A stretch of 64,000 nucleotides of DNA from Lacrimispora xylanolytica (GTDB taxonomy: Bacteria > Bacillota > Clostridia > Lachnospirales > Lachnospiraceae). Under the pieces are notes generated by a model that had not been told where the DNA came from, searched no databases, and was given only the letters and a program-made list of their open reading frames with translations. Numbering within the stretch: position 1 is the first letter of the stretch; each line of letters begins with the position of its first letter. Positions 37,387 to 47,741 of the stretch are shown here, one piece after another. Location: contig NZ_CP113524.1 of NCBI RefSeq assembly GCF_026723765.1, forward strand, positions 434,001-498,000, given 5' to 3'. The position numbers were made by a program, and so were the translations under genes.

Positions 37387-38868
37387 ATGGGTAATGAAAA
37401 AGCTATGCTTGCTGCAAAATCAACAATTGCAAAATCAGTGGGGAATTCTAACCCACTCATTGACCATCATTTGGGAGCTGATCCCTATGCACTGACTTAC
37501 AACGGCAGGGTTTACATCTACATGTCCAGCGACAATTATGAGTACAACAGCAATGGTACGATTAAGGACAATAGCTTTGCAAATTTAAAGAGTATTTTTG
37601 TCATATCTTCTGAGGACATGGTAAACTGGACCGATCATGGAGCAATTCCTGTAGCTGGGGCAAACGGCTTAAATGGGGGACAAGGTATAGCGAAATGGGC
37701 AGGTAATTCCTGGGCACCTGCGGCGGCAGTAAAAAATATCAACGGTAAGGATAAGTTCTTCCTTTACTTTGCAAACGGAGGCGCTGGAATTGGTGTACTC
37801 ACTGCAGACAGCCCCATCGGACCGTGGAGCGATCCTTTAGGCAGAGCTCTGGTAACAACCAACACACCTGGTATGCCTGGAGTTGTATGGCTGTTTGATC
37901 CTGCGGTATTCATTGACAACGATGGAACCGGATACTTATACTGCGGCGGCGGAATTCCTGGAGATCCAAGGCCAACACAGGCACAGCAGGCAAATCCCAA
38001 AACGGCCAGAGTGCTTCGTTTAGGCGGTGATATGATCAGCGTTGTGGGAAGTGCCTCTACCATTGATGCACCCTTTATGTTTGAAGATTCGGGAATGCAT
38101 AAGTATAACGGGGTTTACTACTACTCCTACTGTATCAACTTCTCCGGCACTCACCCGTCAGACAAGCCTGCAGGTGAAATCGGATATATGACCAGCAAAA
38201 GCCCAATGGGACCATTTACCTACGCAGGCCATTTCCTGAAAAATCCGGGCGTATTCTTCCGGTCAGGAGGCAATAACCACCACTGCGTATTCCAGTTTAA
38301 GAACCAATGGTATGTGGTTTACCATGCACAGACTGTGAGCCAGGCCTTATACGGCTCTGGAAAAGGATACCGTTCCCCTCACATTAACAAGCTGATTCAT
38401 AACAGCGATGGAAGCATTCGTGAGGTAGCAGCCGATTATGCTGGCGTGGCACAGCTTTCCAACTTAAACCCATATCAGAGGGTGGAAGCAGAGACCATTG
38501 GCTGGAACGGAGGAATTTTAACTGAACGATGCTATGCATCTGGCGGTCCTTCCTACAACCAGAACGTAACCGGAATTAATAACGGGGACTGGATTGGATT
38601 AGGAAACGTTGATTTTGGCTCCCAGGGAGCAAGAAGCTTTAAGGCCAATGTGGCCTCCACTTCCGGCGGCAAGATTGAAGTACGCCTTGACAGCACAAGC
38701 GGCACCCTTGTAGGAACCCTTACGGTGCCGAACACAGGCGGTGCACAAAACTGGAGAGAGGTAGAAACTTCCATAAGCGGTGCCACTGGTGTGCATAAAT
38801 TATTCTTTGTATTTACGGGAAATGGAAGCGGAGACTTATTTAAGTTCGACTACTGGAAATTCTCGTAA
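37387..38868 (+). CDS. GH43 arabinoxylan-active glycosidase with CBM6, lacking a signal peptide
   Basis: An alpha-L-arabinofuranosidase/beta-xylosidase-type hydrolase of 493 aa. The five-bladed propeller has a general base D32 (HLGADPYAL), pKa modulator D171 (WLFDPAVFID) and acid E264 (PAGEIGYMTS). The C-terminal domain (about 360-493) is CBM6-like (YQRVEAETIGWNGG, GDLFKFDYWKFS). Arabinoxylan arabinofuranohydrolase is the best guess. The N-terminus (MGNEKAMLAAKSTIAKSVGN) has no signal peptide, although CBM6 enzymes are usually secreted. It is first in a xylan cluster with a GH43 and a GH30 gene. GGAGG precedes the ATG. Confidence 0.88.
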   Translation: MGNEKAMLAAKSTIAKSVGNSNPLIDHHLGADPYALTYNGRVYIYMSSDNYEYNSNGTIKDNSFANLKSIFVISSEDMVNWTDHGAIPVAGANGLNGGQGIAKWAGNSWAPAAAVKNINGKDKFFLYFANGGAGIGVLTADSPIGPWSDPLGRALVTTNTPGMPGVVWLFDPAVFIDNDGTGYLYCGGGIPGDPRPTQAQQANPKTARVLRLGGDMISVVGSASTIDAPFMFEDSGMHKYNGVYYYSYCINFSGTHPSDKPAGEIGYMTSKSPMGPFTYAGHFLKNPGVFFRSGGNNHHCVFQFKNQWYVVYHAQTVSQALYGSGKGYRSPHINKLIHNSDGSIREVAADYAGVAQLSNLNPYQRVEAETIGWNGGILTERCYASGGPSYNQNVTGINNGDWIGLGNVDFGSQGARSFKANVASTSGGKIEVRLDSTSGTLVGTLTVPNTGGAQNWREVETSISGATGVHKLFFVFTGNGSGDLFKFDYWKFS

Positions 38869-38894
38869 AGCAGTGTGAAATAGAATTGAGTTTT

Positions 38895-38946
38895 GGTTAC
38901 AGCGTGCGGCTGAAATAGAGTATATAACCAGCTGCCGTCTGTAACC
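38895..38946 (+). other. Long intergenic hairpin between the two GH43 genes
   Basis: GGTTACAG (38895-38902) pairs with CTGTAACC (38939-38946), and inside it CGGC (38907-38910) pairs with GCCG (38934-38937). There is no T run directly after it. It could stabilise or mark processing of the polycistronic mRNA. Confidence 0.5.
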
Positions 38947-38950
38947 GTCC

Positions 38951-38973
38951 AAAAAGACAGAAAGGTCTTTTTT
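38951..38973 (+). terminator. Possible partial terminator before the second GH43 gene
   Basis: AAAAAGAC (38951-38958) pairs with GTCTTTTT (38965-38972). It is a weak stem with a T run, 20 nt before the next start codon, so it may attenuate rather than stop transcription. Confidence 0.5.
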
Positions 38974-38991
38974 GTAGAAGGGGGTTTACCT

Positions 38992-40575
38992 ATGAGCAAT
39001 CAAATTAATGAAGCAGAAGTGAAATTAGCATGGCAGTCAGATAATGGTGACGGTACGTATACCAATCCAATTTTAAACGCAGATTATCCTGACATCGCAG
39101 CGGTACGGGTGGGAAATGATTTTTATATGGTCAGTTCTACCTTTGTATCCTTTCCATCGATTCCTATCATGCACTCCAAGGATCTTGTGAACTGGGAAAT
39201 CATTGGATACGTGACCCAGGATTTAAACGGAACCGGGAAATCCTACAATTTAACAGATAACTTTGAGGACTATGGTCATGGTTGCTGGGCGCCTACCATC
39301 GCTTATCGTAACGGTGTATTTTATGTGGGCATCTATCAGGCACAGGGCAGATTTATCCTGTGTACTGCTACCAATCCAGCCGGTCCTTATACCAAAAAAG
39401 TCTTTGACCGGGGCTTTCATGATCCGGCACTGTTTCTTGATGATGACGGAACGGGCTACATTATTTCAGAAGCAAACGATGTAAGAATCAGCAAGCTGAG
39501 CGGTGATTATAAGTCCGTGGTAAGCAGTACGGTCAGTACCCGGATTGAAGGGATCACCGGAAAGTATCTGGTGGAGGGAACCCATGTGATTAAGAAGAAC
39601 GGGTTTTATTATATCTTCCGTAATTCCACACCACCTGAATCCTACACCTATTGCCTGCGCTCCAGAAATATTTATGGACCCTATGAGATGAGAATCCTTT
39701 TAGATGGACCAAGAATCCCAGGAGGAAGCCAGATCCATCAGGGCGGCCCTATTGATACCCCTACAGGTGAGTGGTGGTTCTACGTGTTCCAGGATTGCAA
39801 CGGCGTTGGCCGGAGAGATATTTTAGTTCCCATGCAGTGGCAGAATGACTGGCCAGTCCTTGGCGTTCCGTCAACCGTAAAAAATGTAACCATAGGAGGA
39901 AAGAGCTATCCAATCGGCAGCGTGCCAATTACCTATAAAAAACCAAATGTAGGCGCTTCTTATCCAGCCGTATCCATTCCCACCAGTGATGAATTCCAAT
40001 CCAATACACTGGGCGTACAGTGGCAGTGGAATCATTACCCGGATAACAGCAAATGGTCCTTAAGCGAACGCTCTGGTTATTTAAGGCTTCGTGCAAAGAC
40101 GGCTAAGAATTTATGGAGGGCAAGCAACACCCTTACCCAGCGGGTCCAGGGACCTGACTGCCAGGGAACCATTGAGCTTGATACAGCCAATATGAAGGAT
40201 GGAGATCAGGCAGGACTTTGTCTCCTTAATATCCCTTACGGTTCCATTGGCGTTGTAAAATCCGGGGGAGTGAAGCGGATCGTAGCCAATATTAATGCAA
40301 AAGAAGACGGACAGGGCACTATTACGAGTGGGCCAGTGGTGCAAAGTAATATCATTTATTTGAGGGCAAATGCCAACCTGCTTACAGACAAAGCGACCTT
40401 TTCTTACAGCACCAACAATGTGAACTTTACTCAGCTCGGGGGCCAGCTTAACATGCCCTTTGACCTTGGCTTTTTCCAGGGAGATAAGTTTGGTATCTAC
40501 AATTTCACAACAGCCTCTTCCGGCGGTTATGTAGATGTCAGCTGGTTCCGTTTTGATAGCTTAGGCAAAAAATAA
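38992..40575 (+). CDS. GH43 beta-xylosidase-like enzyme, lacking a signal peptide
   Basis: A hydrolase of 527 aa acting on xylo-oligosaccharides or arabinoxylan. The GH43 propeller (about 20-310) has base D34 (NADYPDIAAVRV), D144 (FHDPALFLDDDG) and acid E195 (YLVEGTHVIKK). The C-terminal part (about 330-525) is the beta-sandwich commonly attached to GH43 xylosidases. The N-terminus MSNQINEAEVKLAWQSDNGD is hydrophilic with no export signal, so it may be cytoplasmic. AGGGGG precedes the ATG. It is followed after 26 nt by the GH30 gene. Confidence 0.9.
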   Translation: MSNQINEAEVKLAWQSDNGDGTYTNPILNADYPDIAAVRVGNDFYMVSSTFVSFPSIPIMHSKDLVNWEIIGYVTQDLNGTGKSYNLTDNFEDYGHGCWAPTIAYRNGVFYVGIYQAQGRFILCTATNPAGPYTKKVFDRGFHDPALFLDDDGTGYIISEANDVRISKLSGDYKSVVSSTVSTRIEGITGKYLVEGTHVIKKNGFYYIFRNSTPPESYTYCLRSRNIYGPYEMRILLDGPRIPGGSQIHQGGPIDTPTGEWWFYVFQDCNGVGRRDILVPMQWQNDWPVLGVPSTVKNVTIGGKSYPIGSVPITYKKPNVGASYPAVSIPTSDEFQSNTLGVQWQWNHYPDNSKWSLSERSGYLRLRAKTAKNLWRASNTLTQRVQGPDCQGTIELDTANMKDGDQAGLCLLNIPYGSIGVVKSGGVKRIVANINAKEDGQGTITSGPVVQSNIIYLRANANLLTDKATFSYSTNNVNFTQLGGQLNMPFDLGFFQGDKFGIYNFTTASSGGYVDVSWFRFDSLGKK

Positions 40576-40601
40576 AATTATAAAAAATGGAGGAAATATA
40601 A

Positions 40602-41870
40602 ATGGATCAGAAAATTTTAGATGGACAGAATGTAGATAGAATCGGGGAAGAAAACTTAAAAGAGGATATGTTAAGAACAAGCCTGGCAGCAGCGTCAAGT
40701 GATGCCTATATCAATCTATCCGCACAAAAACAGCTCATCCGCGGCTTTGGCGGTATGAACCACGTGGCCTGGATCGGAGATTTAACCGCAGCACAGAGAG
40801 AGACTGCCTTTGGTAATGGCAATAATCAGCTTGGATTTTCCGTTTTAAGAATCTTTATTGATGAGAATAAGAACAACTGGAGCAGAGAAGTGGCAACCGC
40901 AAAGAAGGCGATTGAGAAAGGCGCCATTGTATTTGCTTCCCCATGGAATCCGCCTAGTAATATGATAGAGACCTTTACCAGAAACGGCGTAGCCAATCAG
41001 AAGCGGCTTCGCTCCAATATGTACGGTGCCTATGCTCAGCATTTAAATGACTTTGTAACTTATATGAAGAACAACGGAGTTAATCTGTATGCCATTTCTG
41101 TTCAGAATGAGCCGGATTATGCTCAGGAATGGACCTGGTGGACACCAGCTGAAATGCTTAATTTCATGAAGAATTATGCAGGAAGCATCAACTGCAAGGT
41201 CATTGCACCAGAATCATTTTCTTACGTAAAAAATATGTCAGACCCTATTTTAAACGATTCCGCAGCACTTGCCAACATGGATATCCTTGGAGCCCATCTG
41301 TATGGTACTCCAGTCAGCAATTTCCCTTATTCCCTGTTTAAGCAAAAGGGAGCTGGAAAGGAGCTTTGGATGACAGAAGTGTATTATCCAAATAGCAACG
41401 CTAATTCAGCCGATTCATGGCCGGAGGCCCTGGAGGTTTCCGTTCATATGCACAATGCCATGGTAGAAGCAGAATTCCAGACCTATGTCTGGTGGTATAT
41501 CCGCAGAAACTATGGTCCTATGAAGGAAGACGGAACCATTAGTAAACGAGGCTATAACATGGCCCATTTCTCCAAATTCGTCAGACCAGGCTACGTGAGA
41601 GTAGATGCCACTAAGAGCCCAGGCAGCAACCTTTATGTATCTGCTTATAAGGGCGGTGGAAAAGCCGTTATCGTAGCAATCAATAAGAATACCTCTGCGG
41701 TCAGCCAGAAATTCACCATTCAGAACGGGAATGTAGGTTCCATTGCGTCCTGGATGACAGACGGAAGCAGAAATCTTTCTTACGGTTCCGGCTATCAGGT
41801 ATCCGGCGGTTCCTTTACTGCCCAGCTTCCTGCAAGAAGTGTTACTACCTTTGTGGCTGAGTTAAAGTAA
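40602..41870 (+). CDS. GH30 subfamily 8 glucuronoxylanase, lacking a signal peptide
   Basis: An endo-xylanase of 422 aa that cuts xylan relative to methylglucuronic acid side groups (GH30_8 knowledge). The acid/base is E170 in SVQNEPDYAQ and the nucleophile is E259 in LWMTEVYYP. The arginine-containing motif WWYIRRNYGPM is the subfamily determinant for glucuronic acid binding. The C-terminal beta domain (about 330-422) is present. GGAGG precedes the ATG. The first 40 residues (MDQKILDGQNVDRIGEENLK) are charged and carry no signal peptide, unlike the secreted XynC of bacilli. It closes the xylan cluster and is followed by a terminator. Confidence 0.92.
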   Translation: MDQKILDGQNVDRIGEENLKEDMLRTSLAAASSDAYINLSAQKQLIRGFGGMNHVAWIGDLTAAQRETAFGNGNNQLGFSVLRIFIDENKNNWSREVATAKKAIEKGAIVFASPWNPPSNMIETFTRNGVANQKRLRSNMYGAYAQHLNDFVTYMKNNGVNLYAISVQNEPDYAQEWTWWTPAEMLNFMKNYAGSINCKVIAPESFSYVKNMSDPILNDSAALANMDILGAHLYGTPVSNFPYSLFKQKGAGKELWMTEVYYPNSNANSADSWPEALEVSVHMHNAMVEAEFQTYVWWYIRRNYGPMKEDGTISKRGYNMAHFSKFVRPGYVRVDATKSPGSNLYVSAYKGGGKAVIVAINKNTSAVSQKFTIQNGNVGSIASWMTDGSRNLSYGSGYQVSGGSFTAQLPARSVTTFVAELK

Positions 41871-42021: not shown

Positions 42022-42813
42022 ATGAGCTACTTAAATGGAAATACAGGATACCGGAAGGATATATTAACCACTCGCTCTGTCATCAAAAAAGGCAATTATG
42101 CAGTCCTCGAACCAGACGGACTTGTGAAAAATACCATTCCAGGCTTTACACAATGCGAGATTACCATTCTTGCTTCTCCACTTCTTGGGGCCTCCTTTGT
42201 GGATTATTTAGTAAATGCAGCGCCTGGTGGTGGAAACAGACAGGGATTTGGGGTTTCCGGGGAAGAAATCTTTTTCTATGTATTTGAGGGAACGGTCAAG
42301 GTATGGAATGAGAAAGAGGAAGCTGTGGTTACAGGCGGTGGCTATATCTACTGTCCGGAGGGAACCAGGTTGCATTTTGAAAATACAGGAGACAGGGCGG
42401 CCAGATGCTTCCTTTATAAACGGCTGTATCAGAAAATCGAGGGGTATGAGGCCCATACGGTAATCGGAAATATCAATGATGTGGACTGGGTTCCTTATGA
42501 AGGCATGGAGGATGTGCTGGTAAAGGATTTTCTTCCTTCGGCAACCAACTTAGGCTTTGACATGAACTTTCATATCCTTGCATTTAAGCCAGGAGCCTGT
42601 CACGGATACATTGAGACTCATATCCAGGAGCATGGAGCCTACATCTACTCTGGGGAAGGCATGTACGTCCTTGACAATGATTGGATTCCTGTTAAAAAGG
42701 GAGACTACCTGTTCATGGGCGCCTATTGTCCCCAGGGGGCATATGGAGTAGGACGGGAAGATATGTTTGCTTATATTTATTCTAAGGATTGTAATCGGGA
42801 CGTAAGACTCTAG
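42022..42813 (+). CDS. allE: (S)-ureidoglycine aminohydrolase
   Basis: A bicupin enzyme of 263 aa that hydrolyses (S)-ureidoglycine to (S)-ureidoglycolate and ammonia in allantoin breakdown (family knowledge). It has the family segments LTTRSVIKKGNYAVLEPDGL, SGEEIFFYVFEGTVKV and, in the C-terminal cupin, IETHIQEHGAYIYSGEGMYVL, which carries the manganese ligands. AGGAGG is 8 nt before the ATG. It is monocistronic. No other allantoin genes are in the window, so the pathway context is missing and another role is possible. Confidence 0.9.
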   Translation: MSYLNGNTGYRKDILTTRSVIKKGNYAVLEPDGLVKNTIPGFTQCEITILASPLLGASFVDYLVNAAPGGGNRQGFGVSGEEIFFYVFEGTVKVWNEKEEAVVTGGGYIYCPEGTRLHFENTGDRAARCFLYKRLYQKIEGYEAHTVIGNINDVDWVPYEGMEDVLVKDFLPSATNLGFDMNFHILAFKPGACHGYIETHIQEHGAYIYSGEGMYVLDNDWIPVKKGDYLFMGAYCPQGAYGVGREDMFAYIYSKDCNRDVRL

Positions 42814-42814
42814 C

Positions 42815-44098
42815 CTATACAGTCTGAAACCATAGTTCCAGTACATAATTTTGATTGTTTTTGTTTACCAGGCATTTACAGCCCATTTCCTCCATCATAG
42901 TACAGATATTCTGAACGCCAACGCCTGTGCTGTCCATTCCTTTTTCTTTGTTTACAATCTCATTGGAGAACTGCAGCACCAGCCAGCCTTCTTGATGGAG
43001 AAGGCTGATGGTGACTGTTTTTTGTGCATCAGCATACTTGATGATGTTTGAACTCACGTTATCCAGTATTCGATTCACATAATCGAACATTAGGGAAACA
43101 TTGGCATTCGGCCACTGTATCTTTGTTTCCACATTAAAATCATGCTGTGTCAGATAGCATGACATATCGGATAACATGTCCTCGAAAAAAAAACGTGCCT
43201 TTTGAACTGGATCAGGGGGCAGTTTTTCTTCCTCTGACAATAAAAAGCGTTGAAAGAGCTGATCTGACATTCGTTTGATCTGGGTGGCTTTTGTACGGGC
43301 TTTTTCCAGATAGCTTATGTATTGTTCCCGATTGGAAAATGAACTTTTTTGCAGAACATCCAAATATAAAAGTAAAGCTGTCAGGGGAGTTCTCAGGTCA
43401 TGGGAGACGCTTACGACCAAATTGTTATTTGCCTGTGCGGCAGCCTCTTCTTTTTGCATGTTTTCCAATAAAGAGATGCGCATTTCATTCAGTCCTTGGG
43501 CTAGGGATGCCAGCTCATCACTGCCCTTTATGGTAATTTCATAGTCCAGGCAGCCTGTTTCCAGTATTTTAATTTCTTTTTCCAGTTGAATAATATAATC
43601 GATTTTTTTCTGAACAAATTTTACAAAGATACCAAGAAACAGAAGTATGGAGAGAATTGCTTCGACAACTGTAGTTTTTACATAATACTGATAATCAAAA
43701 TATCCAGATAAATATACCGTAGCAGATTCTCCGGAGAATGAAATGTTTCTGCTGGCACCGGTGCGGTAGAAGCTTGCCACCTCCTCCTCGGACTGGTCGT
43801 TTAGGGAGTCAAATAATATTTTCTCATGCTGACTTATGGCGAGTGCCACATAGCCCATTTTTTGTTTTTGAAGCCAAGACTTTATCTTTTCGGTATCGGT
43901 AAGTTTGATGCTTTCTTGTTTTACAAAGCTTTCAAACTTGTTTAAGCATTTTTCATTGGAGCGTGAGATGTAAGAAGAGTTTTGAAAGTACTCATCTAAC
44001 AGCGTGTTTCCTGCTGAATTTAGCATCAGGTAAAATACAGTGGCAAGAAAGCCTGCAAAAACCAGTACCAGAAGAGACTCTGTTTTTAAACGTTTCAT
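42815..44098 (-). CDS. Sensor histidine kinase of the CotH/VTC locus
   Basis: A membrane sensor kinase of 427 aa: TM1 (about 8-28), an extracytoplasmic domain (about 29-142), TM2 (about 145-163), a HAMP-like region and the phospho-histidine H233 in VVSVSHDLRTPLTALLL. The N box is ILDNVSSNIIKYAD. The G1 region (LQFSNEIVNKEKG) lacks a standard DxGxG, while the G2-like TGVGVQNI is present. This is seen in some VanS-like kinases. The start at 44098 lies 5 nt past the response regulator stop. It is the last gene of the locus. Confidence 0.9.
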   Translation of the reverse strand: MKRLKTESLLVLVFAGFLATVFYLMLNSAGNTLLDEYFQNSSYISRSNEKCLNKFESFVKQESIKLTDTEKIKSWLQKQKMGYVALAISQHEKILFDSLNDQSEEEVASFYRTGASRNISFSGESATVYLSGYFDYQYYVKTTVVEAILSILLFLGIFVKFVQKKIDYIIQLEKEIKILETGCLDYEITIKGSDELASLAQGLNEMRISLLENMQKEEAAAQANNNLVVSVSHDLRTPLTALLLYLDVLQKSSFSNREQYISYLEKARTKATQIKRMSDQLFQRFLLSEEEKLPPDPVQKARFFFEDMLSDMSCYLTQHDFNVETKIQWPNANVSLMFDYVNRILDNVSSNIIKYADAQKTVTISLLHQEGWLVLQFSNEIVNKEKGMDSTGVGVQNICTMMEEMGCKCLVNKNNQNYVLELWFQTV

Positions 44099-44102
44099 AC
44101 CT

Positions 44103-44810
44103 CTATTCAAATCGATATCCCTTTCCCCATATGGTTTTAATATGCGTTGGACTATCATGGACCTTCTCAATCTTAACTCTTAATTTACTGATATGAACCA
44201 TAACAGTTCCATTAGAGGAATGAAAATACGGTTCTTTCCAGACACTTTCATATATATTTTGTGCAGAAAATACTTTTCTTGGATGCTGCATCATTAATAG
44301 AAGAATCCTGTATTCCAATTCTGATAATTCTACCTCTTTGTCGTCCACCCAAACTTCATTAAAATCTTTGTTTATACGGATATTGCCAATTTCCAGGAGT
44401 TTATGTTCCGGTAGGTCCAGTCCGTTTTTTTCCTTTCCCCGATAAATTTGATAACGTCTGATTTGTGCTTTTACTCTGCCAAGAAGCTCAGAGTAAGAAA
44501 AGGGCTTTGCCAGATAATCATCGCCGCCAGCCATAAGTCCGATGAGCTTGTCGGAATCGCTTGATTTTGCAGTCAGGAATATGATTGGCACGAAAGAAAA
44601 TTTCCTGATTTCTTCGCAAGTCCTGATTCCAGACATTCCAGGCATCATGACATCCAGTATTACAAGGTCAACGTATTCATTTAACAATGAAATACCTGTT
44701 TCCCCATTCTCTGCCTCAAAAACTTTATAATGCTCGCTTTCCAATAAAATCCGAATTCCCTCACGGATATCAGCATCATCTTCAATAATTATAATCGTAG
44801 CTTTTTTCAT
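44103..44810 (-). CDS. OmpR-family response regulator of the CotH/VTC locus
   Basis: A 235-aa response regulator. The receiver has E10-D11-D12 (IIIIEDDADI), phospho-acceptor D53 (LVILDVMMPG) and lysine K103 region YLAKPFS. The C-terminal winged helix ends HIKTIWGKGYRFE. It lies 78 nt downstream of the CotH gene and immediately before the kinase gene. Direct repeats at the VTC promoter are its plausible binding site, so the two-component system would control its own operon. That link is inference. Confidence 0.92.
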   Translation of the reverse strand: MKKATIIIIEDDADIREGIRILLESEHYKVFEAENGETGISLLNEYVDLVILDVMMPGMSGIRTCEEIRKFSFVPIIFLTAKSSDSDKLIGLMAGGDDYLAKPFSYSELLGRVKAQIRRYQIYRGKEKNGLDLPEHKLLEIGNIRINKDFNEVWVDDKEVELSELEYRILLLMMQHPRKVFSAQNIYESVWKEPYFHSSNGTVMVHISKLRVKIEKVHDSPTHIKTIWGKGYRFE

Positions 44811-44888
44811 TTCAGCCCTCTTCTTAACTCTTTGTTACATGCATTTTATCATATTTCCATGGAGAATAAAATTATTGTTACGCCATAA

Positions 44889-46283
44889 TTAGTTCATTAA
44901 TTTCTTATTTTTCATATCATTGATATGAATGTCTGATGCATCAATCAAAGCTGCTTTGTTCGCAGCCTGATCGCTGATGGTTGAAGGTATAGTTCCGTTT
45001 AACTGTCCCCTGATGCTTTCTGTCCGTAATTGACAGAAGCGGTTTAATGTATTGACGGCCTTTTGATATTCTTCATAGGTGCAGAATTTACTTGGGTCTT
45101 TCTCAACATGAGGGGAGATGAGCAATGCGGTTTGTTGGATTCGTTTGGCAATATCAGAAGAATCAAGAAATTTCCTGTAATAGTCCTGATACATTTTTTG
45201 ATACTTACTATCTTTCATGATCCAGCTTTGCATGGGGCGGTCTTTTAAGGCTTCGTTGATTGGCACATTAACCGCCAGGGTGGAGTCTTCGTGAGAAAAT
45301 GTACCAAAGGACATATTGTAGTCCCATGGGATCATGGATAATCGGCCATCTTTCTCGTAGAGATAATAATTGTGGGCATCTTCGCCGGTGTAGCTGTCCC
45401 CATTTACCACGAAGTTGTGAACAACAAAATAACGTATTACCTTTTCTGTATCCAATACCTTATTAAAATGATTCCCCAAGTTCAGCTCTCTGATGGCTGA
45501 GATAAAACGCTTCTTATCCTTGGAAGATATCTTTGTTTTGGCATGATCAAAGAAGATGGAATAGCTCTTTGGATCGTCATTGATATATTGCAGATTCACA
45601 TCTGGAGTGAATCTCTCTTCCTGGTCATCTGGCTGGAGCTCTTCCTCTTTCCCATCGGCCTCTTCTTCTTTGCCCTCAGGTTTATATAAATTACCGTAGT
45701 TAATACCATAATTTCGTTTCAAAAAGGATTCTTCCAAGCCCTCAACCGCCAGATAAAAACCCCATTTTTCACCGTTTACCAGGATGTTGGTATAACTGCT
45801 TAAGGGACTGCTGACACCGAAGTCTCCCATCATCTGATAGGCTAAGTAATCCATCATATAAGTACTGTCATGAATCATGTTATTTAATGATATTTTATCA
45901 AGTCCATGATAGTTGATTGCCTTTTCATAATGGTCAAATTCAACCTTAAAGCTATATCTGGTACTGCCAGCGTCTGCTGCATCGGTCAGAGAGGATGAGC
46001 CTTTGGCGCGGATTCCCACGTTAGTAAACGTTTCTCCATCAATGATAATGGTACAGGCGGAATATTTTTTATCCTTAGCAGAAGCGATAAACTTATCCCA
46101 ATCGTCCATCACAATGTTAATGGTGTGAACGCGGGAATCGTCAAACAGGCGCTTTTCATATTCCATGGATTTATCCTGAGATTTCAGTCCCAGTTTATCA
46201 CCGTTATACAATGCGCCTGTAATAAGAAGGGCCAGAATTAGGAAGGTAAGGGATAGTTTCCCTAAATGCTTGTTTGTAGACAT
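44889..46283 (-). CDS. CotH-family protein kinase-like, membrane anchored and extracytoplasmic
   Basis: A 464-aa protein with one N-terminal hydrophobic segment (about 9-26, LSLTFLILALLITGALY) acting as an anchor or signal, so the rest should lie outside the membrane. The CotH fold is recognised from RAKGSSSLTD, KVEFDHYEKAINYHGLDKIS, LNNMIHDSTYMMDYLAY and the catalytic-metal stretch DGRLSMIPWDYNMSFG. Spore-coat CotH is an atypical protein kinase (family knowledge). The acidic insert near 205-225 (EGKEEEADGKEEE) is unusual. The start at 46283 has GGAGG 6 nt upstream. It follows the DUF4956 gene by 10 nt. Confidence 0.9.
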   Translation of the reverse strand: MSTNKHLGKLSLTFLILALLITGALYNGDKLGLKSQDKSMEYEKRLFDDSRVHTINIVMDDWDKFIASAKDKKYSACTIIIDGETFTNVGIRAKGSSSLTDAADAGSTRYSFKVEFDHYEKAINYHGLDKISLNNMIHDSTYMMDYLAYQMMGDFGVSSPLSSYTNILVNGEKWGFYLAVEGLEESFLKRNYGINYGNLYKPEGKEEEADGKEEELQPDDQEERFTPDVNLQYINDDPKSYSIFFDHAKTKISSKDKKRFISAIRELNLGNHFNKVLDTEKVIRYFVVHNFVVNGDSYTGEDAHNYYLYEKDGRLSMIPWDYNMSFGTFSHEDSTLAVNVPINEALKDRPMQSWIMKDSKYQKMYQDYYRKFLDSSDIAKRIQQTALLISPHVEKDPSKFCTYEEYQKAVNTLNRFCQLRTESIRGQLNGTIPSTISDQAANKAALIDASDIHINDMKNKKLMN

Positions 46284-46293
46284 TCTGTTCCTC

Positions 46294-46965
46294 CTATCCC
46301 ATATAATCTCCATTGTAGCTTACTAACACAGCGCTATGTACCCCTTCTATTTCCGATAATTCATTGACAAAATCCGTATTATTATCCTTTAAACGAACCT
46401 CTAAATTAACTTCAATGGCTCCTTTTCTTACGGTCTTACTTTTAACAACGCATTTCAATGTTTTTGTATTAAGGTATTCCTTGGCCTTTGCTTCTACATG
46501 GTAGCCGTCGCATTGGAGTACTACAATATATGGGTTGGTATAAATTTTCTTATTTACAAAAATAAGAAGTACGGAGCCGATAACAATGCTTCCAATCACA
46601 GCTAAAGGTATCAAACCGGCAGCCAGGATAATGCCTACTGCAATGGACCAGAATAAGAAGGCAATATCAAGTGGTTCCTTGATCGCCGTTCGAAATCTTA
46701 CGATTGAGAGTGCACCTACCATTCCCAGTGAAAGCACTACATTAGAGGTCACAGCCAGGATTACAATGGTTGTAATCATAGTTAAGGCCATTAAGGTGAC
46801 TGCAAAGCTGGAAGAGAACAGAACTCCGTTGTAGGTCAATTTGTATATGTAGCAGATAAATAATCCAATGCAAAAGGATAGCAGCAATGCCACTAGCATA
46901 TCCAATAAGCTAATACTCGTTACCTTGTCCACAAAGCTTGATTTAAAAACATCACTAAAATTCAT
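46294..46965 (-). CDS. DUF4956 membrane protein
   Basis: A 223-aa integral membrane protein with about four helices in residues 18-135, containing the family core SLGMVGALSIVRFRTAIKEP, continuing LDIAFLFWSIAVG. A cytoplasmic domain (about 145-223) follows with an ACT/ferredoxin-like look (TLKCVVKSKTVRKGAIEVNL). The function is unknown. It is regularly found beside VTC and CotH genes (from memory). The start at 46965 has AAAAGGGG 7 nt upstream. It sits between the VTC and CotH genes with very short gaps, so the three products probably act together at the membrane. Confidence 0.9.
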   Translation of the reverse strand: MNFSDVFKSSFVDKVTSISLLDMLVALLLSFCIGLFICYIYKLTYNGVLFSSSFAVTLMALTMITTIVILAVTSNVVLSLGMVGALSIVRFRTAIKEPLDIAFLFWSIAVGIILAAGLIPLAVIGSIVIGSVLLIFVNKKIYTNPYIVVLQCDGYHVEAKAKEYLNTKTLKCVVKSKTVRKGAIEVNLEVRLKDNNTDFVNELSEIEGVHSAVLVSYNGDYMG

Positions 46966-46988
46966 ACATATACCCCTTTTCATTATAA

Positions 46989-47660
46989 TTAGCCGTATAA
47001 ACGGCAGACTGCGTATTTAGAAAATGCAGAAACCCTCCGACCGGTAAGCTGAACGGTATCGCGTATGATGGAAGGGAGAAACTCATCCCATTTTACCTCC
47101 ATTACGATCCCGCTATCCCCTGCTGGAATCATGGGACAGTGGGGATTGAGAAAATCAATGGAGTGAAGGCCGGTACGAATATCGTAGTCCAGAGTAACCC
47201 GTACATTTCCCGGCTTAAAGATAAAGGGCTCTCTGATGTAATCTACAATTGTTTTTGGCCTCAGCCCACAGGTGGTCATTTTAAAATATAATTCCTGGAT
47301 TAAAGGTTCCTCCCTGGCTTTCATCCACTCAATCTGCCCATCCACCACATCCTGTGCCTCCTGCCTGGAAAGAGAAACGCTTTGTTTGTTTCCGAGTCCT
47401 CCGACCTTACTTTTCTTTTCAAGGTAAATGAAGTCCAGATTGTCATTGTAGTAGCGGATACGGAATTTTTCCCGTCTGCTTATGCCATCAATCTTATCCC
47501 GCAATGCCTGATCCTGAAAATCATCAAAATACAGGCTGCGGATTTTATAGGTTCCATTGATCGCATGGGAATCTAATGTTGCAACCGCAAGGAGACGTTG
47601 GCGGATTGCTATCATGTCACTATAAGATATTTCATGTTTCCATTCATGTCTAAACTTCAA
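46989..47660 (-). CDS. VTC-domain protein (polyphosphate polymerase-like)
   Basis: A 223-aa protein of the VTC/triphosphate-tunnel fold. Eukaryotic Vtc4 uses this domain to polymerise polyphosphate from ATP (family knowledge). Basic and acidic residues that would line the tunnel are visible in KIRSLYFDD, KFRIRYYND, YLEKKSKV, TLDYDIRTG and VMEVKWDEF. It begins with MKFRHEWKHEISYSD at TTG 47660, 7 nt after GGAGG. It is the first gene of the locus and lies behind a promoter with direct repeats. Enzyme activity in bacteria of this type is not established. Confidence 0.88.
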   Translation of the reverse strand: MKFRHEWKHEISYSDMIAIRQRLLAVATLDSHAINGTYKIRSLYFDDFQDQALRDKIDGISRREKFRIRYYNDNLDFIYLEKKSKVGGLGNKQSVSLSRQEAQDVVDGQIEWMKAREEPLIQELYFKMTTCGLRPKTIVDYIREPFIFKPGNVRVTLDYDIRTGLHSIDFLNPHCPMIPAGDSGIVMEVKWDEFLPSIIRDTVQLTGRRVSAFSKYAVCRLYG

Positions 47661-47698
47661 TAAACTTCCTCCTTTATTCTTATTTTAATGATAAGACT

Positions 47699-47741
47699 AT
47701 TTTAGTACATGGTTATTAATAGTTTCTAAATCGTTTCTAAA
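47699..47741 (-). promoter_or_regulatory. Response-regulator-type promoter of the VTC operon
   Basis: On the minus strand, TTTAGAAAC occurs twice with an 11-bp period (plus-strand GTTTCTAAA at 47722-47730 and 47733-47741). The proximal copy overlaps the -35 position, and TAAAAT (47699-47704) lies 17 bp downstream of it as the -10. Direct repeats one helical turn apart touching the -35 are typical of OmpR-family activated promoters. Confidence 0.6.

Follow-up and report, generated by a model that had tools for sequence, protein, structure and literature searches.

A two-component-linked VTC-DUF4956-CotH operon in Lacrimispora xylanolytica: a candidate envelope module with an exchangeable surface partner

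Introduction

The yeast VTC complex, the CotH kinase of Bacillus spore coats, and the accessory genes of Gram-positive Pel clusters are the closest described systems to a five-gene operon of Lacrimispora xylanolytica that we analyze here. The operon lies in a 64,000-nt window (the whole stretch of DNA analyzed; contig NZ_CP113524.1 of assembly GCF_026723765.1, positions 434,001-498,000) of a 4.516-Mb genome, and encodes a VTC-domain protein, a DUF4956 membrane protein, a CotH-family kinase, a response regulator, and a sensor kinase. We know of no assigned role for bacterial VTC-domain proteins and, to our knowledge, the phosphate source of bacterial extracytoplasmic kinases is an open question; ATP is expected to be scarce outside the cell.

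In the accessible parts of two accounts, VTC is treated as eukaryotic and PPK is given for bacteria (PMC10657179, PMC7332688). According to excerpts of a third, the Vtc4 polymerase has K458 as its catalytic lysine, altering the counterpart of this residue barely affects a TTM hydrolase, and Vtc4 is without the second-metal acidic patch that TTM hydrolases and cyclases have (PMC4641920). D228 and D251 are given as inactivating positions in B. subtilis CotH in the excerpt available (PMC7821199). As for the gene neighborhood, partial text of one report places cotH, a poly-phosphate polymerase (PPP), DUF4956, and DUF4832 next to Pel clusters, with a regulatory role proposed for CotH (PMC7112168), and partial text of a Clostridium perfringens report lists VTC, 'tubulin', and CotH genes, with VTC and CotH side by side (PMC2879425).

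The original prediction, made from the letters of the window alone, proposed that the operon is an undescribed envelope phosphorylation or polyphosphate system with its own two-component system. We find that it is best read as a real, conserved, and often regulated envelope module in which Vtc4-type polymer synthesis would be coupled to a surface effector, and that its conserved core is the VTC-DUF4956 pair.

Results and discussion

Reading of open reading frames (ORFs) together with Pfam places all five genes on the minus strand in the predicted order, and once gene starts had been corrected from ribosome-binding sites and homologues the intergenic gaps were 23, 10, 78, and 4 nt, within the predicted 78 nt. 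The VTC gene (46989-47660; PF09359, E 3.7e-39) has a TTG start at 47660 and encodes 223 aa. The DUF4956 ORF opens at 46983, and its start is probably at 46965, because a length of 223 aa is shared by most of the 120 relatives listed, which leaves a gene at 46294-46965 for a protein of ~223 aa (PF16316, E 4.5e-13). For CotH (44889-46283; PF08757, E 1.2e-56), whose ORF opens at 46313, the start at 46283 (MSTNK...) was chosen by ribosome-binding site and homology and is preceded by AGGAGG. The OmpR-type response regulator (44103-44810; PF00072 Response_reg and PF00486 Trans_reg_C) is followed by a membrane sensor histidine kinase with HisKA, HAMP, and GHKL-type ATPase domains (42815-44098; the ORF opens with TTG at 44170, corrected to 44098), for which hydropathy predicts two membrane helices separated by a loop. 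The operon is bounded by a convergent cupin gene (42022-42813) and, on the plus strand from 47770, by an acetyltransferase ORF. VTC, DUF4956, and CotH each have a single match in the genome, all at this locus; the nearest named genomes are those of Clostridium sp. 12(A), with an identical VTC (100%), and [Clostridium] aerotolerans (94%).

The distribution of these families was followed in 195 genomes of the class (Clostridia), a sample in which related genomes are not independent and adjacency counts are lower bounds. DUF4956 matches occur in 103 genomes, VTC in 102, CotH in 82, and Cthe_2159 (PF14262) in 80. VTC and DUF4956 are found together in 100 genomes, with 3 and 2 genomes holding a single family of the two (Fisher 3e-49), and DUF4956 lies within 600 nt of 126 of 134 VTC genes. 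CotH shares a genome with VTC in 76 cases (Fisher 5e-24) and lies within 2.5 kb of at least 61 VTC genes. Cthe_2159 tends to share genomes with VTC as well, 72 of its 80 genomes also having VTC (7e-20), and one or other of CotH and Cthe_2159 is present in 100 of the 102 VTC genomes; the L. xylanolytica genome itself has no Cthe_2159 match. At ten loci whose third gene was missed by phmmer with the window CotH, that gene proved to be Cthe_2159 in all ten. A strict recount of third genes over 160 fetched loci, a selected set (60 of the 61 with CotH near, 20 hand-chosen from the 66 without, and the 80 best VTC matches), gave CotH at 91, Cthe_2159 at 55, both at 1, and neither at 13. Partner counts are taken from this recount since an iterated CotH profile also gathered Cthe_2159, with CotH motifs in only 58 of 136 loci; one contig stands in the set twice (L125 and L174), in the third-gene, regulator-flank, and TTCAG counts alike. 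The three genes thus co-occur across the class as predicted, but the core is the VTC-DUF4956 pair, to which CotH and Cthe_2159 are alternative partners.

The exchange is visible even within the genus of L. xylanolytica, where 16 of 25 genomes carry VTC: ten of these have Cthe_2159 and, in the stretch fetched, no regulator; in three others CotH is accompanied by a TTCAG-type regulator (see below); and the last three, L. xylanolytica included, are of the window type. Among control genomes, B. subtilis has CotH and no VTC or DUF4956 match, and Corynebacterium glutamicum and Methanosarcina acetivorans match all three families. Two irregular copies were seen along the way, a 295-aa DUF4956 protein with an internal repeat and no fusion (P0241) and a Cthe_2159 gene split over two frames of 168 and 412 aa (L301).

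Both partners carry an N-terminal hydrophobic helix, either anchor or signal peptide, in nearly every linked copy (92 of 94 for CotH, 54 of 56 for Cthe_2159), so the kinase should face outward; in the window CotH, hydropathy indicates the membrane helix by which the original prediction had anchored it. In close relatives this anchor is common to both partners and reads roughly MSTHKxIDxIC...LFMNGExLGI. Between 31 CotH and 38 Cthe_2159 copies, identity across the groups is 48.6% over 34 residues, compared with 51 and 52% within them. These anchors had been selected by a motif over residues 1-5 (2 CotH and 6 Cthe_2159 copies were dropped), and the count was repeated without those residues: identity over residues 6-34 alone is 45.0%, and shuffles reach 16-19% at the best of eleven shifts. 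Other N-termini occur outside the close-relative clade. That two unrelated ectodomains stand on one conserved helix suggests a membrane complex with DUF4956.

The trio had already been reported, in the part of the Pel account available (PMC7112168), so that "undescribed" does not hold for the three genes as such; the CotH-or-Cthe_2159 third gene and the anchor common to both in close relatives are new relative to these reports. In the literature searched, subscription papers mostly lying outside it, we came across no account of Cthe_2159 as an alternative third gene, of an anchor common to both partners, or of a link to two-component genes and operators.

Two-component genes are strongly enriched around VTC. 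Of 80 class-sample loci, 36 have an OmpR-type regulator between -4.5 and +7 kb of VTC, where the number of regulators in each genome (capped at 27 for a few) would predict 3.1. Because related genomes are not independent, we also took one locus per genus, which gave 21 of 46 against 1.9 expected, and dereplicated the loci for the repeat counts. Among 45 dereplicated loci with a linked regulator, 10 have an 11-bp direct repeat (9/10 matches) ahead of VTC, where shuffles that keep single-base content only predict 0.38; among 87 others, 7 do (Fisher 0.03). One repeat, TTCAG-N6-TTCAG, is found in 15 of 30 promoters of two arrangements (8 of 14 with the regulator downstream, 7 of 16 with it divergent) and in 1 of the 125 remaining, which also include loci with the regulator farther off or inverted; the background is 0.0014 per 170 nt. 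The [Clostridium] aerotolerans entries L175 and L311 are one contig, judging by its length and gene content, and both enter the TTCAG count only, among the remaining loci owing to a short regulator frame; the response-regulator gene of this locus appears in two frames of 145 and 81 aa.

Upstream of the window VTC, an 11-bp direct repeat, TTTAGAAACGA-TTTAGAAACTA (47711-47741, minus strand), is the probable response-regulator operator and overlaps a -35-like hexamer. It differs from TTCAG, in step with the different regulator of the window, and operator type tracks regulator type even inside the genus of L. xylanolytica. The exact 20-mer at 47722-47741 (0 mismatches) is found once in the genome, a degenerate third copy lies at 47711-47730, and L174 and L175 carry both repeats unchanged. 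The hexamer belongs to a sigma-70-like promoter on the same strand, TAGAAA-18-TAAAAT (47699-47728), a weak consensus match only (9/12) whose -10-like TAAAAT ends at 47699; such matches number 17 in the region and 16.5 in shuffles. Of the direct-repeat promoter originally proposed, the repeat thus stands, while promoter matches of this kind are no commoner than in shuffles. A genome-wide regulon search with the operator, at up to 3 mismatches, returned 8 matches, fewer than the reversed control (24).

The regulators form several groups, and that of the window is at most 39% identical to those compared outside its lineage, so recruitment of two-component systems seems to have happened repeatedly. 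The claim that the module has its own two-component system is supported by the enrichment and the matching operators, and narrowed by the many loci that lack a regulator (see below) and by a window regulator seen only in its own lineage. Several loci hold further genes: L306 and L308 have an extra regulator/kinase pair upstream of the module beside the downstream pair; in one genus the two-component genes are separated from VTC by a gene for a family-II pyrophosphatase-like protein (DHH, DHHA2, DRTGG, CBS), identified by Pfam in L108 and L142 and by similar length and position in L143 and L149, and not used as support here; and L108 has a CNNM/CorC protein downstream.

At the level of the proteins, the VTC domain scores 135.1 bits against PF09359 (curated cut-off 23), and a profile of 41 relatives matches yeast Vtc4 in the PDB (3g3q, E 6.2e-19) along with other Vtc chains. 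Ten residues of the window protein, K8, R67, R69, K83, K92, R143, R154, E188, K190, and K215, are identical to Vtc4 K200, R264, R266, K281, K294, R361, R373, E426, K428, and K458 (8I6V numbering), which, K458 apart, we take to be the tunnel and metal-Glu positions; each is kept in 158-160 of 160 relatives. K190 thus aligns with Vtc4 K428, as R4 does with R196; together with E6 these two presumably correspond to the glutamates of AtTTM3, judging by a motif rather than an alignment. The likeness to the yeast complex is therefore one of family and of 10/10 mapped tunnel residues, known here from sequence, whereas the window protein has neither SPX nor a membrane domain of its own, adjoins DUF4956, and carries the extra conserved E6. 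Polymerase would be, in our view, a better reading of this protein than hydrolase.

The window CotH scores 193 bits against PF08757 (cut-off 23.8), and it matches 5jd9 in the PDB (E 2.8e-10). Its model (pLDDT 85.6) finds B. cereus CotH by Foldseek (5jda, E 3.4e-18), with a TM-score of 0.82 by target length and 0.63 by query length. D306 and D331, invariant in 45 relatives, fall on the aspartates of the NFD and PWD motifs when aligned to 5jd9 and, by motif and spacing, would be the equivalents of B. subtilis D228 and D251. The residues on which the enzymatic part of the original prediction depends are thus intact in both VTC and CotH.

DUF4956 (49.7 bits against PF16316, cut-off 30.6) has a membrane core that is near-invariant in 61 close relatives, with a conserved GALSIVRFR; across a diverse set of 41 relatives, G90, R98, G117, and G123 never vary. 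In an AlphaFold2 model (pLDDT 73.5) the protein has six helices and, at its C terminus, an alpha-beta domain, and solved structures match that domain only, and weakly (MgtC and ACT domains; best PDB match the MgtC C-terminal domain, E 4e-3). The order of membrane helices and ACT-like C-terminal domain resembles MgtC/SapB proteins, but the window protein, at 25.4 bits against the curated NCBIfam MgtC/SapB model, falls far below its cut-off of 214 and is classed as DUF4956.

We put the probability that the locus is a two-component-controlled envelope module, combining VTC polymer synthesis, a DUF4956 membrane partner, and a surface effector, at about 0.45. The VTC protein would be a cytoplasmic Vtc4-type phosphate-chain polymerase acting on DUF4956 as its membrane partner; a polymer, most likely polyphosphate from ATP, would be produced at the membrane and handed to or displayed at the outer face; and a surface effector on a co-evolved N-terminal helix would use or hold it. 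In L. xylanolytica that effector, CotH, may phosphorylate a wall, glycan, or surface-protein target with the polymer as donor, and in sister lineages it would be the Cthe_2159 carbohydrate-binding protein. The sensor kinase would read an envelope cue, with the regulator turning the operon on, rather than repressing it, at the 11-bp repeats. A stronger version, in which VTC and DUF4956 form a bacterial two-protein counterpart of yeast VTC that makes polyphosphate in the cytoplasm and threads it outward, to serve CotH as a phosphoryl source where ATP is lacking or to be held by Cthe_2159 as a binder of polyanions and glycans, seems to us doubtful.

A number of observations weigh against this picture. 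The 223-aa VTC protein, in which Pfam finds PF09359 only and hydropathy no membrane helix, lacks SPX and the Vtc membrane domain, and E6 (159 of 160 relatives) occupies the place of Vtc4 T198 and may preserve some of a hydrolase-like acidic patch. The literature searched yielded no experiment testing whether a bacterial VTC-domain protein is a polymerase. A PPK1-type match elsewhere in the genome means that polyphosphate can be made without VTC; by the same token, the VTC module need not serve bulk polyphosphate. The MgtC-like C-terminal domain could make DUF4956 a regulator rather than a channel. CotH matches are absent from 26 of the 102 VTC genomes and 55 of the 160 selected loci have Cthe_2159 and no CotH nearby, so donating phosphate to CotH cannot be the general role. 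On the side of control, of 104 loci with full flanks, 57 lack a nearby regulator, and TTCAG repeats occur in 0 of 19 loci with a regulator upstream on the same strand.

Several of these points would fit a different function for the pair, in which the VTC tunnel binds a nucleotide or polyphosphate and an MgtC/ACT-like DUF4956 relays energy or phosphate state to the effector. The weak matches of its C-terminal domain to MgtC and ACT domains, the weak NCBIfam match, the conservation of the pair with two unrelated effectors, and the PPK1 already in the genome all favor a sensor-regulator of this kind, but ten tunnel residues kept in at least 158 of 160 VTC proteins seem more than binding requires, and three charged residues of the DUF4956 membrane part, R96, R98, and D106, are nearly invariant and would suit an anion path; we consider it somewhat unlikely. 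Unlikely too, in our judgment, is an accessory role in surface polysaccharide, with CotH phosphorylating a secreted glycan or anchor protein, Cthe_2159 binding the glycan, and VTC-DUF4956 feeding or gating a step. Its attraction lies in the Pel setting of the trio, as far as the report extends in the part available (PMC7112168), and in a locus with DUF2194, DUF3492, and PelG upstream (L112); at another locus (L102) the module is followed by a GH72 match, weak and below cut-off, and then by a HEAT-repeat protein, an arrangement resembling the C. perfringens set in the available portion of that paper (PMC2879425). Excerpts of other sources likewise describe Cthe_2159 proteins as binding cellulose and polygalacturonate (PMC6712302) and as distantly related to an adhesin cluster (PMC9210967). 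The L. xylanolytica operon shares the contiguity of cotH, PPP, and DUF4956 seen in the available Pel text (PMC7112168), but it stands separately with its own two-component genes, contains no glycan synthase, and belongs to a genome in which a PelG search found no match; for this genome we therefore reject a Pel link.

A spore-coat kinase with incidental neighbors is very improbable. The CotH fold and aspartate pair and the B. cereus match are what would be expected of one, but the window protein has an N-terminal membrane helix and sits in a VTC-DUF4956 operon; cotH is linked to the same genes in non-spore-forming streptococci, according to partial text (PMC7112168); and C. glutamicum and M. 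acetivorans have matches to VTC, DUF4956, and CotH. In line with the original prediction, reading the ORFs between 37 and 52 kb by eye, nine of them also checked by Pfam, revealed no spore-coat gene, although no search aimed at cotB or cotG was made there or genome-wide. We give equally little credence to the idea that the two-component genes are chance neighbors of the trio. Their position varies (upstream, downstream, or divergent) and their regulators fall into distinct groups, as chance might produce, but the excess of regulators, per locus and per genus, and the way operator type follows regulator type within the genus speak against it, and we reject a chance neighborhood on the co-occurrence and adjacency of VTC and DUF4956 together with the regulator enrichment.

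Some observations lie to the side of these questions. Anaerobic gut fungi have CotH and Cthe_2159 domains and their non-rumen chytrid relatives do not, in the part of the source available (PMC6712302); these are the same two partners as at VTC loci. At L102 and three similar loci (L105, L109, L113), the three ORFs next after VTC-DUF4956-CotH measure about 720, 380, and 460 aa, the first two at L102 being those with the GH72 and HEAT-repeat matches. In the window, the cupin gene at 42022-42813 is an (S)-ureidoglycine aminohydrolase (TIGR03214, 326.9 bits, cut-off 200), ending 1 nt from the sensor-kinase end on the opposite strand, and the ORF list shows by eye three consecutive glycoside-hydrolase-like ORFs at 37387-41870, the first without an obvious signal peptide.

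In conclusion, with a single-copy operon, intact catalytic residues, an exchangeable partner, and a candidate operator, the L. xylanolytica locus makes both the role of bacterial VTC proteins and the phosphate source of extracytoplasmic kinases testable. If VTC is a polymerase, it would provide a second, membrane-coupled bacterial route to polyphosphate beside PPK, and if VTC and DUF4956 prove to be a two-protein counterpart of the yeast complex, the module would represent a general, two-component-controlled delivery of high-energy phosphate to the bacterial surface.

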